Positions 40,777 through 47,157 of a stretch of 64,000 nucleotides of DNA are shown here, one piece after another (position 1 is the first letter of the stretch; every line of letters starts with the position of its first letter). The notes under the pieces were generated by a model. That model saw only the letters and a program-made list of their open reading frames with translations, was not told where the DNA came from and searched no databases. Origin of the DNA: Hydrogenothermaceae bacterium (lineage in GTDB: Bacteria; Aquificota; Aquificia; Aquificales; Hydrogenothermaceae); the NCBI GenBank assembly GCA_026418455.1, contig JAOABH010000003.1, positions 1 through 64,000 of the forward strand, read 5' to 3'. The position numbers and the translations under genes were made by a program.

Positions 40777-41336
40777 GTTTTGTCTGAACCGTGTGGGGTA
40801 GAAAGACAGGCAAGAATGCTATGGTTTATGTTGATATTTATTGTTTTGTCTGAACCGTGTGGGGTAGAAAGCTCAATGTAAACATATTTCAGCTTCTCGT
40901 ATCTACTTGGCTTGTTTTGTCTGAACCGTGTGGGGTAGAAAGGAGTTATAGAGCGTTGCAAATCTATACAAAATGAAATGTTTTGTCTGAACCGTGTGGG
41001 GTAGAAAGATGCAGTAGCAATGGAATGTCGAAGTAAATGAGGAGGTTTTGTCTGAACCGTGTGGGGTAGAAAGTATGGAGGTGGGAAATGATTCTGAAGG
41101 TAATCAGAGAGTTTTGTCTGAACCGTGTGGGGTAGAAAGTAGAATATTTTTCAAGTAAAGAGATTTTGAAGCCTTGTTTTGTCTGAACCGTGTGGGGTAG
41201 AAAGGACAAAAAGATAAGGAGATTTAAGCTTCAAGATATTGGTTTTGTCTGAACCGTGTGGGGTAGAAAGTCTAAAAGTGAATTTGATAATATATAATAT
41301 AACACAAGTTTTGTCTGAACCGTGTGGGGTAGAAAG
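40777..41336 (+). CRISPR. CRISPR array, nine identical 29-bp repeats, eight spacers
   Basis: The repeat starts GTTTTGTCTGAACC and ends GTAGAAAG. Copies start at 40777, 40843, 40914, 40980, 41045, 41111, 41176, 41242 and 41308, all identical, including the last. Spacers are 37, 42, 37, 36, 37, 36, 37 and 37 bp. The repeat has little internal dyad (only ACC/GGT), so Cas6 probably acts on a weakly folded repeat. Adjacent to cas2 of the type I-B operon. The open frames on the minus strand here are repeat translation, not genes. Confidence 0.99.
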
Positions 41337-41413
41337 AAATATAACATCTGAGGAATTATTTGATGTTTGATATACTATATAAAAACTTTTAAAGGAAGAG
41401 GTTGTTTAAATAG

Positions 41414-43754: not shown

Positions 43755-44327
43755 ATGAAGATAGATGTTAGGTATTTTATCCGATACAAGTTTTTAAATT
43801 CACTTTTTACAGGTTTATCTATTGGCTCTGTTTTTACTATCTACTCTCCATTACCTCAAACCGTTTTCTCCATAGGAGGTATAGTTCTTGCATTAGGTAT
43901 GATGGTTTTGGCTAAGTTCTATGAAAAAATAGTTAATATAAAATATTTTTTCTTCTTTTCTTTATTGGTTGAAATGGTTATGTTGTTTCTTATATCTGCT
44001 TTCCTTATCAAACCTTATGATTATTACACTGCCTTAGTTATCTATTCTGGATATCAGATAACATTTTTATTTGGAAACTATCTTCTTAGGTCTGAAACTC
44101 TCTTTCTAAGAAAGGTAAAAATTCTATCAACATTGGATATCTACAAACAAGCTGGGTATTTAAGTGGTATGGTTTTATCTTTTTTATTCTATAAATGGCT
44201 TGAATTTAGTTTTGGTATAACAGACAACAGACAGCTTGTTTATAACTTACATTTCCTGCTTTTGGTAATACAGAGTGTAGTTATACTACTTGTTCTGAGA
44301 GCTTTCAAAGTTTTGAGAAACTTTTGA
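43755..44327 (+). CDS. Multi-spanning membrane protein of unknown function
   Basis: 190 residues with about five or six hydrophobic spans and short loops (for example YSPLPQTVFSIGGIVLALGMMVLAKF and IKYFFFFSLLVEMVMLFLISAFLI). I recognise no motif; layout is loosely like part of an MFS or lysoplasmalogenase-type protein but this is not supported. ATG with AAGGAAGG upstream. It is divergent from the ATPase gene across the palindrome and overlaps the convergent Fur-family gene by 42 bp at the 3' end. Confidence 0.75.
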   Translation: MKIDVRYFIRYKFLNSLFTGLSIGSVFTIYSPLPQTVFSIGGIVLALGMMVLAKFYEKIVNIKYFFFFSLLVEMVMLFLISAFLIKPYDYYTALVIYSGYQITFLFGNYLLRSETLFLRKVKILSTLDIYKQAGYLSGMVLSFLFYKWLEFSFGITDNRQLVYNLHFLLLVIQSVVILLVLRAFKVLRNF

Positions 44328-44723
44328 TTTACATTCTGGGCAGACACCATAAACTTCTATACTGTGTCCCAATATATCAAACCCATGAACCTCAATAAGT
44401 TCCTCTTTAAACTTCTCAAAAGGACAGTTATCTATTATGACTATCTTCCTACATTCTTGACATACGAGATAGTTCTTTTTAGATGCAAGTCCAAATCTTG
44501 CCTTATCTTCATTTAACATGTATGCTTTTACTACGAGACCTTTTCTTTGAAGCATATCAAGATTTCTATAAACGGTAGATAAACTCAACTCTATACCTTT
44601 CTCTTTTAATTTTAGATATATATCTTCGGCGTGCATCGGTACAACATTTTCTTCCAAAAGCTGTAGTATAGCTTGTCTCTGTTTAGTAGTTTTGTATCCT
44701 TCAGGAAGTTTTATATTAGCCAT
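44286..44723 (-). CDS. Fur-family metal- or peroxide-responsive regulator
   Basis: A 145-residue Fur/Zur/PerR-type repressor. The winged-helix DNA-binding domain includes YKTTKQRQAILQLL and the recognition helix LSLSTVYRNLDMLQRKGLV. The dimerisation domain has the structural zinc pairs C88-x2-C91 and C128-x2-C131, while HGFDILGH supplies other metal ligands. Which metal it senses cannot be read from the sequence. The gene is divergent from metE, and two 7-1-7 boxes of the Fur class lie between them. Confidence 0.93.
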   Translation of the reverse strand: MANIKLPEGYKTTKQRQAILQLLEENVVPMHAEDIYLKLKEKGIELSLSTVYRNLDMLQRKGLVVKAYMLNEDKARFGLASKKNYLVCQECRKIVIIDNCPFEKFKEELIEVHGFDILGHSIEVYGVCPECKSKVSQNFESSQNK

Positions 44724-44792
44724 TGCTCTCCTTTTTAGAAAAATTAGAAAAATATTATAACTGATAATAAATATAGTTTTATTTTTAGATTT

Positions 44793-44807
44793 TGCAAACT
44801 ATTTGCA
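44793..44807. promoter_or_regulatory. Fur-type box 1, TGCAAAC-T-ATTTGCA
   Basis: A 7-1-7 inverted repeat with one mismatch. Its right arm overlaps the TTGCAT -35 of metE (44804-44809). The centre is 42 bp (about four helical turns) from box 2. Confidence 0.68.
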
Positions 44808-44832
44808 TTTGCATTTTTGTTGTGTTAAAATT
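44804..44832 (+). promoter_or_regulatory. metE promoter
   Basis: TTGCAT (44804-44809), a 17-bp spacer and TAAAAT (44827-44832). Box 1 overlaps the -35 and box 2 begins three bases after the -10. Confidence 0.6.
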
Positions 44833-44834
44833 TT

Positions 44835-44849
44835 TGCAAATGATTTGCA
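44835..44849. promoter_or_regulatory. Fur-type box 2, TGCAAAT-G-ATTTGCA
   Basis: A perfect 7-1-7 inverted repeat at the expected metE transcription start. It matches 10 of 14 arm positions of the classical TGATAAT-N-ATTATCA Fur-family consensus, including the TG..AATnATT..CA frame. Confidence 0.75.
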
Positions 44850-44865
44850 TTTGAAGGAGGTAAAA

Positions 44866-47157
44866 ATGAAAACGACTGTTTTTGGCTATCCAAAGATAGG
44901 AAGAAACAGAGAGCTTAAAAAAGCTCTTGAATCCTATTGGAACGGAGAATTATCAAGGGAAAACTTTTTAGAAGAGGTTAAAAAATTAAATCTTTACAGA
45001 ATAAAAAAGGTTATAGATAGTGGTGTAGATATAGTGCCTTCAAACGACTTTTCTCTGTATGATTTTGTCCTTGATATCTCAACTATGTTTAACATAATAC
45101 CTAACAGATTTAAAGATATAGAGGACTCTTTAGAGCAATATTTTGCTATGGCAAGGGGAAGTAAAACAGCTGTTGCCTGTGAAATGACTAAATGGTTTGA
45201 TACAAACTATCACTATATAGTGCCAGAGCTTTCTGGAGACATTAAACCTATAAAAAACAGACCCTTAGACAGTTTTATAGATGCTAAAAATAACTTCTGG
45301 ATAAACAGTAAACCTGTACTGGTTGGACCATTTACATTTACTTATCTATCAAAAGTTTATAAAACGGATAATCCTTTTGGTATAGCTACTTTAGAAAAAG
45401 CCCCGTTAAGTCAGAAATTTGAGGGATTTTTAGACATTATAACTGACTGTTATATACATATACTTAAAGAGTTAGAGAAGGAAGGTTGTGAAGTTATACA
45501 GCTTGATGAACCGAGTTTTGTCCTTGATTTATCAGAAAAAGAAAAAGATTTAGCAGTTAAAGTTTATCAAAAAATAGCAAAAAATCTATCTTCTCTTAAA
45601 GTTATAGTTCAGACATACTATGAAAGTTTGTCCTATTATAAGGATTTTGTGTATAATCTGCCAGTTCACGGAATTGGTTTTGATTTTATCTTAGGTAGGG
45701 AAAATTTAGAAAATATCAAGAAATTTGGATATCCTTCTGATAAGGTATTGGTGGCTGGAGTTATATCTGGAAGAGATATATGGAAAACAGATTTTGAAGA
45801 AAGTCTTGATATAGTTAAAGTCTTAGAGAAGGTTGTCAATCCGGGAAATATTATCCTTTCAAACTCATCTCCACTATTCCATCTGCCGATTACAGTAGAA
45901 GATGAAAAGGGTCATCTTCCAGAAGATTTAATACAGGTTTTATCCTTCGCTGATGAAAGGTTAAAAGAGCTTCAAACTCTAAAAAATATCATAGAAGGTA
46001 AAGAGAAAGCTCCAAAATCAAATCTCAAACAGTTCTTTGAAAGCTATAAAAACCAAACTTTACGACAGCAGATAGAAGAGATAAAAAACAAAGATATAAA
46101 AAGACAAACAGAGTTTAAGGAAAGATACAAAAAGCAAAACGATATACTTAAACTTCCTCTATTTCCAACAACCACAATAGGTAGCTTTCCTCAGACTAAG
46201 GAGTTAAGAAAAGTAAGAGCAGACTACAAAGCCGGAAGATTATCAAAAGAAGATTATGAGAAGTATATAAACTCACAGATAGAGTATGCTATAAAGATAC
46301 AGGAAGAGATAGGACTTGATGTATTTGTCCACGGTGAGTTTGAAAGGACAGATATGGTTGAGTTCTTTGGAGAAAAGCTTAAAGGATTTGCCTTTACAAA
46401 GAATGGCTGGGTTCAGTCTTACGGCTCAAGATGTGTAAGACCACCAATTATCTATGGAGATGTATCAAGACCAACTACTATGACATTGAGAGAAATACTA
46501 TACGCTCAAAGTTTAACAGACAAGCCTGTAAAAGGTATGTTAACCGGACCTGTAACTATTTTAAACTGGTCTTTTTACAGAAAAGATATACCAAAGGAAG
46601 AGATATCTTATCAGATAGCTTTATCTCTGAGAGAAGAGGTACTGGACCTTGAAAAGGCTGGAATAAAGATAATTCAGATAGATGAGCCAGCATTTAGGGA
46701 AGGTTTACCTCTAAAGAAAGATAAACAGTCTCACTATCTAAACTGGGCTGTTAAATCCTTTAGACTTACCCATTATGATGTGAAAGACACTACACAGATA
46801 CATACTCATATGTGTTACTCAGAATTTGATGAGATTATTGAGTATATCTATAAAATGGATGCAGATGTTATCTCAATAGAAGCATCAAGAAGTAAAGGAG
46901 ATATATTAGAGGCTTTTGAGAGATTTAACTATGATCATGGTATAGGACTTGGTGTTTATGATATCCACTCTCCAAGGATACCGTCTATTGAAGAGATGGA
47001 AGAGATAGTTTTGAGAGCTTTAAAGGTTATAGATAAAAATCTTTTCTGGATAAATCCGGACTGTGGATTAAAAACAAGAAAGTGGGAAGAGGTAATACCA
47101 GCTCTGAAAAATATGGTAGAAGTTGCAAAAAGATTAAGGGAGAAATTTAAACAGTAG
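44866..47157 (+). CDS. metE: Cobalamin-independent methionine synthase
   Basis: Transfers a methyl group from methyltetrahydrofolate polyglutamate to homocysteine using a bound zinc. About 763 aa in two homologous halves: N-terminal FGYPKIGRNRELKKALESYW and the catalytic C-terminal half beginning LPLFPTTTIGSFPQTKELRK. Zinc ligands are expected from IHTHMCYSEFDEI (His, Cys), DVISIEASRS (Glu) and WINPDCGLKTR (Cys). The start is the ATG at 44866 after GAAGGAGG; the frame is open further upstream but that would run through the promoter and boxes. Confidence 0.97.
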   Translation: MKTTVFGYPKIGRNRELKKALESYWNGELSRENFLEEVKKLNLYRIKKVIDSGVDIVPSNDFSLYDFVLDISTMFNIIPNRFKDIEDSLEQYFAMARGSKTAVACEMTKWFDTNYHYIVPELSGDIKPIKNRPLDSFIDAKNNFWINSKPVLVGPFTFTYLSKVYKTDNPFGIATLEKAPLSQKFEGFLDIITDCYIHILKELEKEGCEVIQLDEPSFVLDLSEKEKDLAVKVYQKIAKNLSSLKVIVQTYYESLSYYKDFVYNLPVHGIGFDFILGRENLENIKKFGYPSDKVLVAGVISGRDIWKTDFEESLDIVKVLEKVVNPGNIILSNSSPLFHLPITVEDEKGHLPEDLIQVLSFADERLKELQTLKNIIEGKEKAPKSNLKQFFESYKNQTLRQQIEEIKNKDIKRQTEFKERYKKQNDILKLPLFPTTTIGSFPQTKELRKVRADYKAGRLSKEDYEKYINSQIEYAIKIQEEIGLDVFVHGEFERTDMVEFFGEKLKGFAFTKNGWVQSYGSRCVRPPIIYGDVSRPTTMTLREILYAQSLTDKPVKGMLTGPVTILNWSFYRKDIPKEEISYQIALSLREEVLDLEKAGIKIIQIDEPAFREGLPLKKDKQSHYLNWAVKSFRLTHYDVKDTTQIHTHMCYSEFDEIIEYIYKMDADVISIEASRSKGDILEAFERFNYDHGIGLGVYDIHSPRIPSIEEMEEIVLRALKVIDKNLFWINPDCGLKTRKWEEVIPALKNMVEVAKRLREKFKQ

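Follow-up and report, generated by a model that had tools for sequence, protein, structure and literature searches.

We report that the promoter of the methionine synthase gene metE, in a Hydrogenothermaceae genome, carries two conserved boxes that recur within this family before the vitamin B12 receptor gene btuB and, in some genera, before metF, and that a neighboring gene encodes a probable Fur-fold repressor of this methionine/B12 regulon, one that would answer a methionine-cycle metabolite without the usual Fur metal site. Fur proteins are textbook bacterial metal sensors, and elsewhere the control of methionine synthesis and B12 uptake is exercised by RNA switches or by proteins unrelated to Fur. 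The host family lives in hot springs and at deep-sea vents.

Two Boxes Span the Predicted metE Promoter

Upstream of metE, the window (the whole stretch of DNA that was analysed, 64,000 nt) contains TGCAAATGATTTGCA at positions 44835-44849, a perfect 15-mer, and TGCAAACTATTTGCA at 44793-44807, which departs from it by one mismatch, with a centre-to-centre distance of 42 bp. The gene itself (44866-47157, + strand) encodes a cobalamin-independent methionine synthase of 763 aa (TIGR01371, 1039 bits against a cut-off of 930). The conserved box is longer than the 15-mer and asymmetric, approximately TTTTGCAAATNATTTGCATTTG(A/C)A; in this form box 1, TTTTGCAAACTATTTGCATTTGCA, occupies 44790-44813 and box 2, TTTTGCAAATGATTTGCATTTGAA, occupies 44832-44855, both on the + strand. 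Box 1 contains the predicted -35 hexamer, TTGCAT (44803-44808, +), which is followed at a spacing of 17 by the predicted -10 hexamer, TAAAAT (44826-44831, +). Box 2 begins directly 3' of the -10, lies over the predicted start point and extends to the AAGGAGG ribosome-binding site of metE. The TTGCAT-17-(-10) geometry is common to nearly all orthologous metE promoters, and wherever two boxes are present, box 2 lies 41-42 bp after box 1. Both boxes look like true metE operators, and their geometry suits a repressor that would occlude the promoter.

The sequence-only reading of this DNA had described the two boxes with centres 42 bp apart, had placed them over the metE -35 and start point, and had suggested that in the TGCAAAT arm the Fur consensus takes a form specific to this group. 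Both boxes were located at its coordinates, and their placement over the promoter agrees with ours. The arm does prove to be a group-specific variant, but the equally group-specific protein that goes with it does not appear, from its sequence, to be a metal sensor (see below). Across all genomes, box 1 at metE usually ends in TTTGAA and box 2 in TTTGCA. The right-hand ATTTG extension is fixed, which makes the metE and btuB boxes asymmetric and oriented, in contrast to the more complete palindrome found at metF, and in box 1 this extension is the -35.

When the whole 1.54-Mb genome was searched with the 15-mer at ≤1 mismatch, three matches were obtained: the two metE boxes and a perfect copy at C8:84997-85011, ~30 bp 5' of a btuB-type gene. 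At ≤3 mismatches the 15-mer performed no better than chance, either in the window (5 matches seen, 6.4 expected from shuffles) or in the genome (99 matches versus 89 for the reversed pattern), and we therefore gave weight only to near-perfect matches. Four places in the genome with two mismatches, three of them intragenic and one a weak intergenic match, were discounted as sites. Elsewhere in the window, a CRISPR-like array at 40777-41337 holds nine copies of GTTTTGTCTGAACCGTGTGGGGTAGAAAG at a spacing of 65-71 bp; a similar DR2-type array is found near metE in genome G012 (L086:4738-5171).

The Boxes Track the Regulator across the Family

A search of 41 Hydrogenothermaceae (Aquificota) genomes with TTTGCAAATNATTTGCATTTG at ≤2 mismatches returned 66 matches, versus a single one for the reversed pattern. 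Box 1 precedes metE in 31/31 promoters of genomes that carry the regulator or metH, its position being -72 to -89 relative to the gene start, and no metE box occurs in the 5 genomes that carry neither (G005, G009, G010, G016, and G022). These five retain other Fur paralogs and have a boxless metE; metH and btuB are absent from them. Box conservation in related genomes, on which the sequence-only reading had let its proposal depend, thus extends across the Hydrogenothermaceae. Sister families without an ortholog of the regulator yielded one unrelated site in 16 genomes; this single match (G037) precedes a gene for an unrelated Fe-S protein and was treated as chance.

A close ortholog of the regulator occurs once per genome in 34 of the 41 genomes, with 62-85% identity in the first set compared. 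Named genomes with close relatives belong to Sulfurihydrogenibium, Persephonella, and other Hydrogenothermaceae/Aquificota MAGs, and beyond this group the best identity is ≤39%. The boxes are probably bound by the adjacent Fur-family protein because box and ortholog co-occur, and because genomes without the ortholog have other Fur paralogs and no metE box. That much of the earlier proposal that this regulator represses metE is upheld by the genome comparison; what we infer is that the regulator binds the boxes, in which direction it acts, and to which ligand it responds. Three genomes depart from the common pattern: G001 has its regulator gene away from metE; in G004 (an 83% complete assembly) boxes are present and the regulator was not found; and in the divergent G002 the only box accompanying the regulator is a palindromic one at btuB. 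Loss of the regulator is confined to genomes that lost B12-dependent methionine synthesis, apart from G004 with its incomplete assembly. In G053, box 1 of the metE promoter is displaced by an inserted gene, a TnpB-like transposon gene lying between both boxes and metE (L082:1501-3021; L105, G053:C1:723901 onward); metE is intact and severed from its operator there, a natural case of promoter separation.

The number of boxes at metE varies with metH. Two boxes were found in 21/21 metH-bearing genomes, the second being seen only there, and one box in 10/10 regulator-bearing genomes without metH and btuB. Mapped on the regulator tree, the box 2/metH pattern requires 4 switches (3-4 in bootstraps), only 2 of which fall on strongly supported branches. 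A sign test of box 2 against metH was not significant and was underpowered, 3-4 evolutionary switches being too few, and we regard the association as suggestive, not as proof.

Some matches fell in repeated sequence. Five identical copies of ATTGCAAATTAATTGCATTTG in G004 are not 5' of genes, nor do the similar copies in G017/G011 or two sites in G024 stand before genes, and all were discounted. The dispersed repeats themselves (G004, L088 and L109-L111; G017/G011, L300 and L299; G024, L098) carry a box-like TTGCAAAT..TTGCATT and could titrate the regulator, or could reflect chance.

B12-Uptake and Methionine Genes Share the Box

Outside metE, the box is most regular at btuB, where it precedes 19/19 starts in loci fetched by homology; an initial count of 15/15 was biased, the loci having been chosen because they bore a site, and was for that reason repeated. 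The single btuB box is flanked by a TATAAT-like -10 on one side and the ribosome-binding site on the other; in G003 and G012 it is in reverse orientation. We named the receptor gene btuB on three grounds: TIGR01779 (TonB-B12 receptor) is by far its best family, although the score of 275 bits (E 9e-82) is below the curated cut-off of 599.7; its best PDB match, with E 5e-40, is E. coli BtuB; and its distribution follows that of metH, with btuB in 23 genomes, metH in 24, and a 55%-complete assembly as the sole difference. Genera g3 and g7 have a metF box at -48, in many cases with the fuller palindrome TTTGCAAATNATTTGCAAA; two g4 genomes have one at about -69, and no metF box was found in g5, g6, or g8. 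We rejected metH as a general target, 21/22 of its starts being boxless; the exception is G012, where metH takes the place of metE as the gene divergent from the regulator. In G044, where the regulator gene is separated from metE, a box precedes the regulator gene itself.

The genes under the common box, metE, btuB, and (in three genera only) metF, form a MetJ-like set. Judging by MetJ, control of metK, metX, and metY as well might be expected of a general SAM sensor; these were not seen among the targets, where weak sites could have escaped. No metal-uptake, peroxide, or stress targets were found among the boxed genes of the 41 Hydrogenothermaceae genomes. The genome scan proposed by the earlier reading, which looked to metal-uptake or stress genes, led instead to btuB, metF, and, once, metH.

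A further gene (43755-44327, +), convergent with that of the regulator in the window and elsewhere usually directly after btuB, encodes a strongly hydrophobic membrane-type protein of 190 aa. It occurs in 21/41 genomes, all of them bearing metH/btuB, and has no relative in Pfam, NCBIfam, PHROGs, or the PDB. Other loci of the family are L284:10802-11383 and L105:5875-6432. It is possibly a B12-uptake partner in the inner membrane that has not been described before.

These targets raise the question of whether cobalamin is the signal and the regulator a protein stand-in for the absent B12 riboswitch, in which case metE and btuB would be repressed and metH would be on when B12 is available. The B12 riboswitch classically governs metE and btuB and leaves out metH, and the RNA element was found in none of the family's genomes (RF00174, 0/41 Hydrogenothermaceae genomes, with 8/14 control genomes positive); a full Rfam scan of 14 loci likewise showed no riboswitches near metE, btuB, or metH. 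The almost perfect co-occurrence of btuB with metH and the restriction of the second metE box to genomes with metH point the same way. However, the regulator and a well-conserved box 1 at metE are both kept in 10 genomes from which metH and btuB are absent, which makes B12 an unlikely signal, and the targets include metF, whose product serves both synthases. We therefore consider cobalamin sensing rather unlikely, and favor a metabolite of the methionine cycle.

A Fur Fold without the Regulatory Metal Ligands

The gene divergent from metE (44286-44723, -) encodes a protein of 145 aa that matches PF01475 with an E-value of 2e-25, in agreement with its earlier assignment to the Fur family. It reached no cut-off among the NCBIfam Fur/PerR/Zur equivalogs (best 74 bits versus cut-offs of 146-220), and its Pfam matches comprised only FUR and a weak winged-helix, with no MetJ ribbon-helix-helix domain. 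An AF2 model built from 18 orthologs had a pLDDT of 67, which rose to 80.7 with 38 sequences; Fur and PerR are the best PDB matches of the latter model.

The five regulatory metal ligands (H37, D85, H91, H93, and D104 in PerR) are replaced in 18/18 aligned orthologs, which carry, in PerR numbering, P37, G/A85, K91, Y/F93, and I104, while the Cys4 zinc site (PerR C96, C99, C136, and C139) is kept in all 18. This structural Cys4 site is not universal in the FUR superfamily. All nine residues, the five ligands and Cys4, are retained in both Fur paralogs of the window's genome and in nine paralogs from four other Hydrogenothermaceae genomes. Positions that are fixed among the orthologs and rare elsewhere (P29, Y68, E72, D73, K82-Y85, I96, N99, and F102) cluster near the lost metal site.

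Cys100, invariant within the IDNCPF motif of the orthologs, might act with Cys4 as a thiol/redox switch through which methionine synthesis would respond to stress from oxidants or sulfide. A precedent is BosR of Borrelia burgdorferi, a Fur-family protein in which, as reported, the S2 metal-sensing site is missing and two CXXC motifs are kept and needed (PMC6476982), although BosR is reported as an rpoS activator and has no methionine link. The regulon described here, however, consists only of methionine-pathway and B12-uptake genes and includes no redox gene, and we regard such a switch as improbable.

A Zur/PerR-type sensor of metal or peroxide, under which metE would be controlled as a zinc enzyme or as an oxidation-sensitive one, is very improbable. 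The Fur fold and the 7-1-7 box are consistent with such a sensor, and in Streptococcus suis PerR represses the methionine operon metQIN and responds to peroxide (PMC3458967), but that protein keeps four of the five metal ligands and its target is a transporter. Here, all five PerR-type ligands are replaced, the boxes mark btuB, metF, and metH instead of genes of metal or peroxide responses, and both of the genome's other Fur-family proteins retain complete metal sites. On these grounds, the metal or peroxide control of metE suggested by the sequence-only reading is not sustained. That the boxes are bound by another protein, whether a different Fur paralog or some other factor, with the adjacent gene playing no part, seems highly improbable. 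Although binding by the regulator is deduced and its gene is not adjacent to metE in G001, the five genomes without the ortholog have other Fur paralogs yet no metE boxes, the metH box of G012 occurs exactly where metH instead of metE is the divergent neighbor of the regulator, and the 7-1-7 symmetry fits a Fur dimer.

Discussion

In the mechanism that we propose, a regulator found only in Hydrogenothermaceae would repress metE and btuB, the latter together with the membrane protein gene usually found behind it, as well as metF in some genera and, in some cases, its own gene. A dimer of the regulator would bind TTTTGCAAATNATTTGCA(TTTG). At metE, dimers on box 1, covering the -35, and on box 2, covering the start point four helical turns (41-42 bp) away, would exclude RNA polymerase; at btuB, a dimer would occupy the single box just before the ribosome-binding site. 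The signal would most likely be a methionine-cycle metabolite, either S-adenosylmethionine or methionine acting as co-repressor, or homocysteine or SAH acting as inducer. Plentiful methionine would then lower metE, metF, and B12 uptake and usually leave metH untouched, with the second box giving tighter repression of metE where MetH can take over.

The combination of metE, metF, and btuB fits control by SAM because MetJ, which uses SAM as co-repressor, has these genes in its core regulon; MetJ of gammaproteobacteria represses them, and in some orders metH, as one regulon (PMC3228920, PMC4239095). MetJ differs in being an unrelated ribbon-helix-helix protein and in controlling metK, metA/B, and transporters, which we did not see here. 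The cobalamin riboswitch likewise typically controls metE and btuB and not metH, but is an RNA element. With Fur, PerR, and Zur the regulator shares the winged-helix and dimerisation fold, the Cys4 zinc site, and a 7-1-7 inverted-repeat operator over the promoter, whereas its missing regulatory metal ligands, the TGCAAAT arms with their one-sided ATTTG extension, and the methionine/B12 targets set it apart. SahR and SamR offer a parallel in that a metal-sensor fold was reassigned to methionine-cycle genes, although they belong to the ArsR family and not to Fur and have other operators, and SahR senses SAH.

It is reasonably likely that this Fur branch exchanged metal sensing for the sensing of an organic methionine-cycle metabolite, and that as a dedicated methionine/B12 repressor it fills, in Hydrogenothermaceae, the role of the cobalamin riboswitch, MetJ, or SahR. 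A search confined to the open-access literature found no Fur-family methionine/B12 repressor, and this is not proof of novelty. The label "Fur-family regulator" alone would steer users of such annotations to iron or zinc. If our reading is true, the protein would illustrate clearly how a metal sensor can become a metabolite sensor, much as ArsR gave rise to SahR, and would explain how metE and btuB are controlled in a bacterial family without cobalamin riboswitches.
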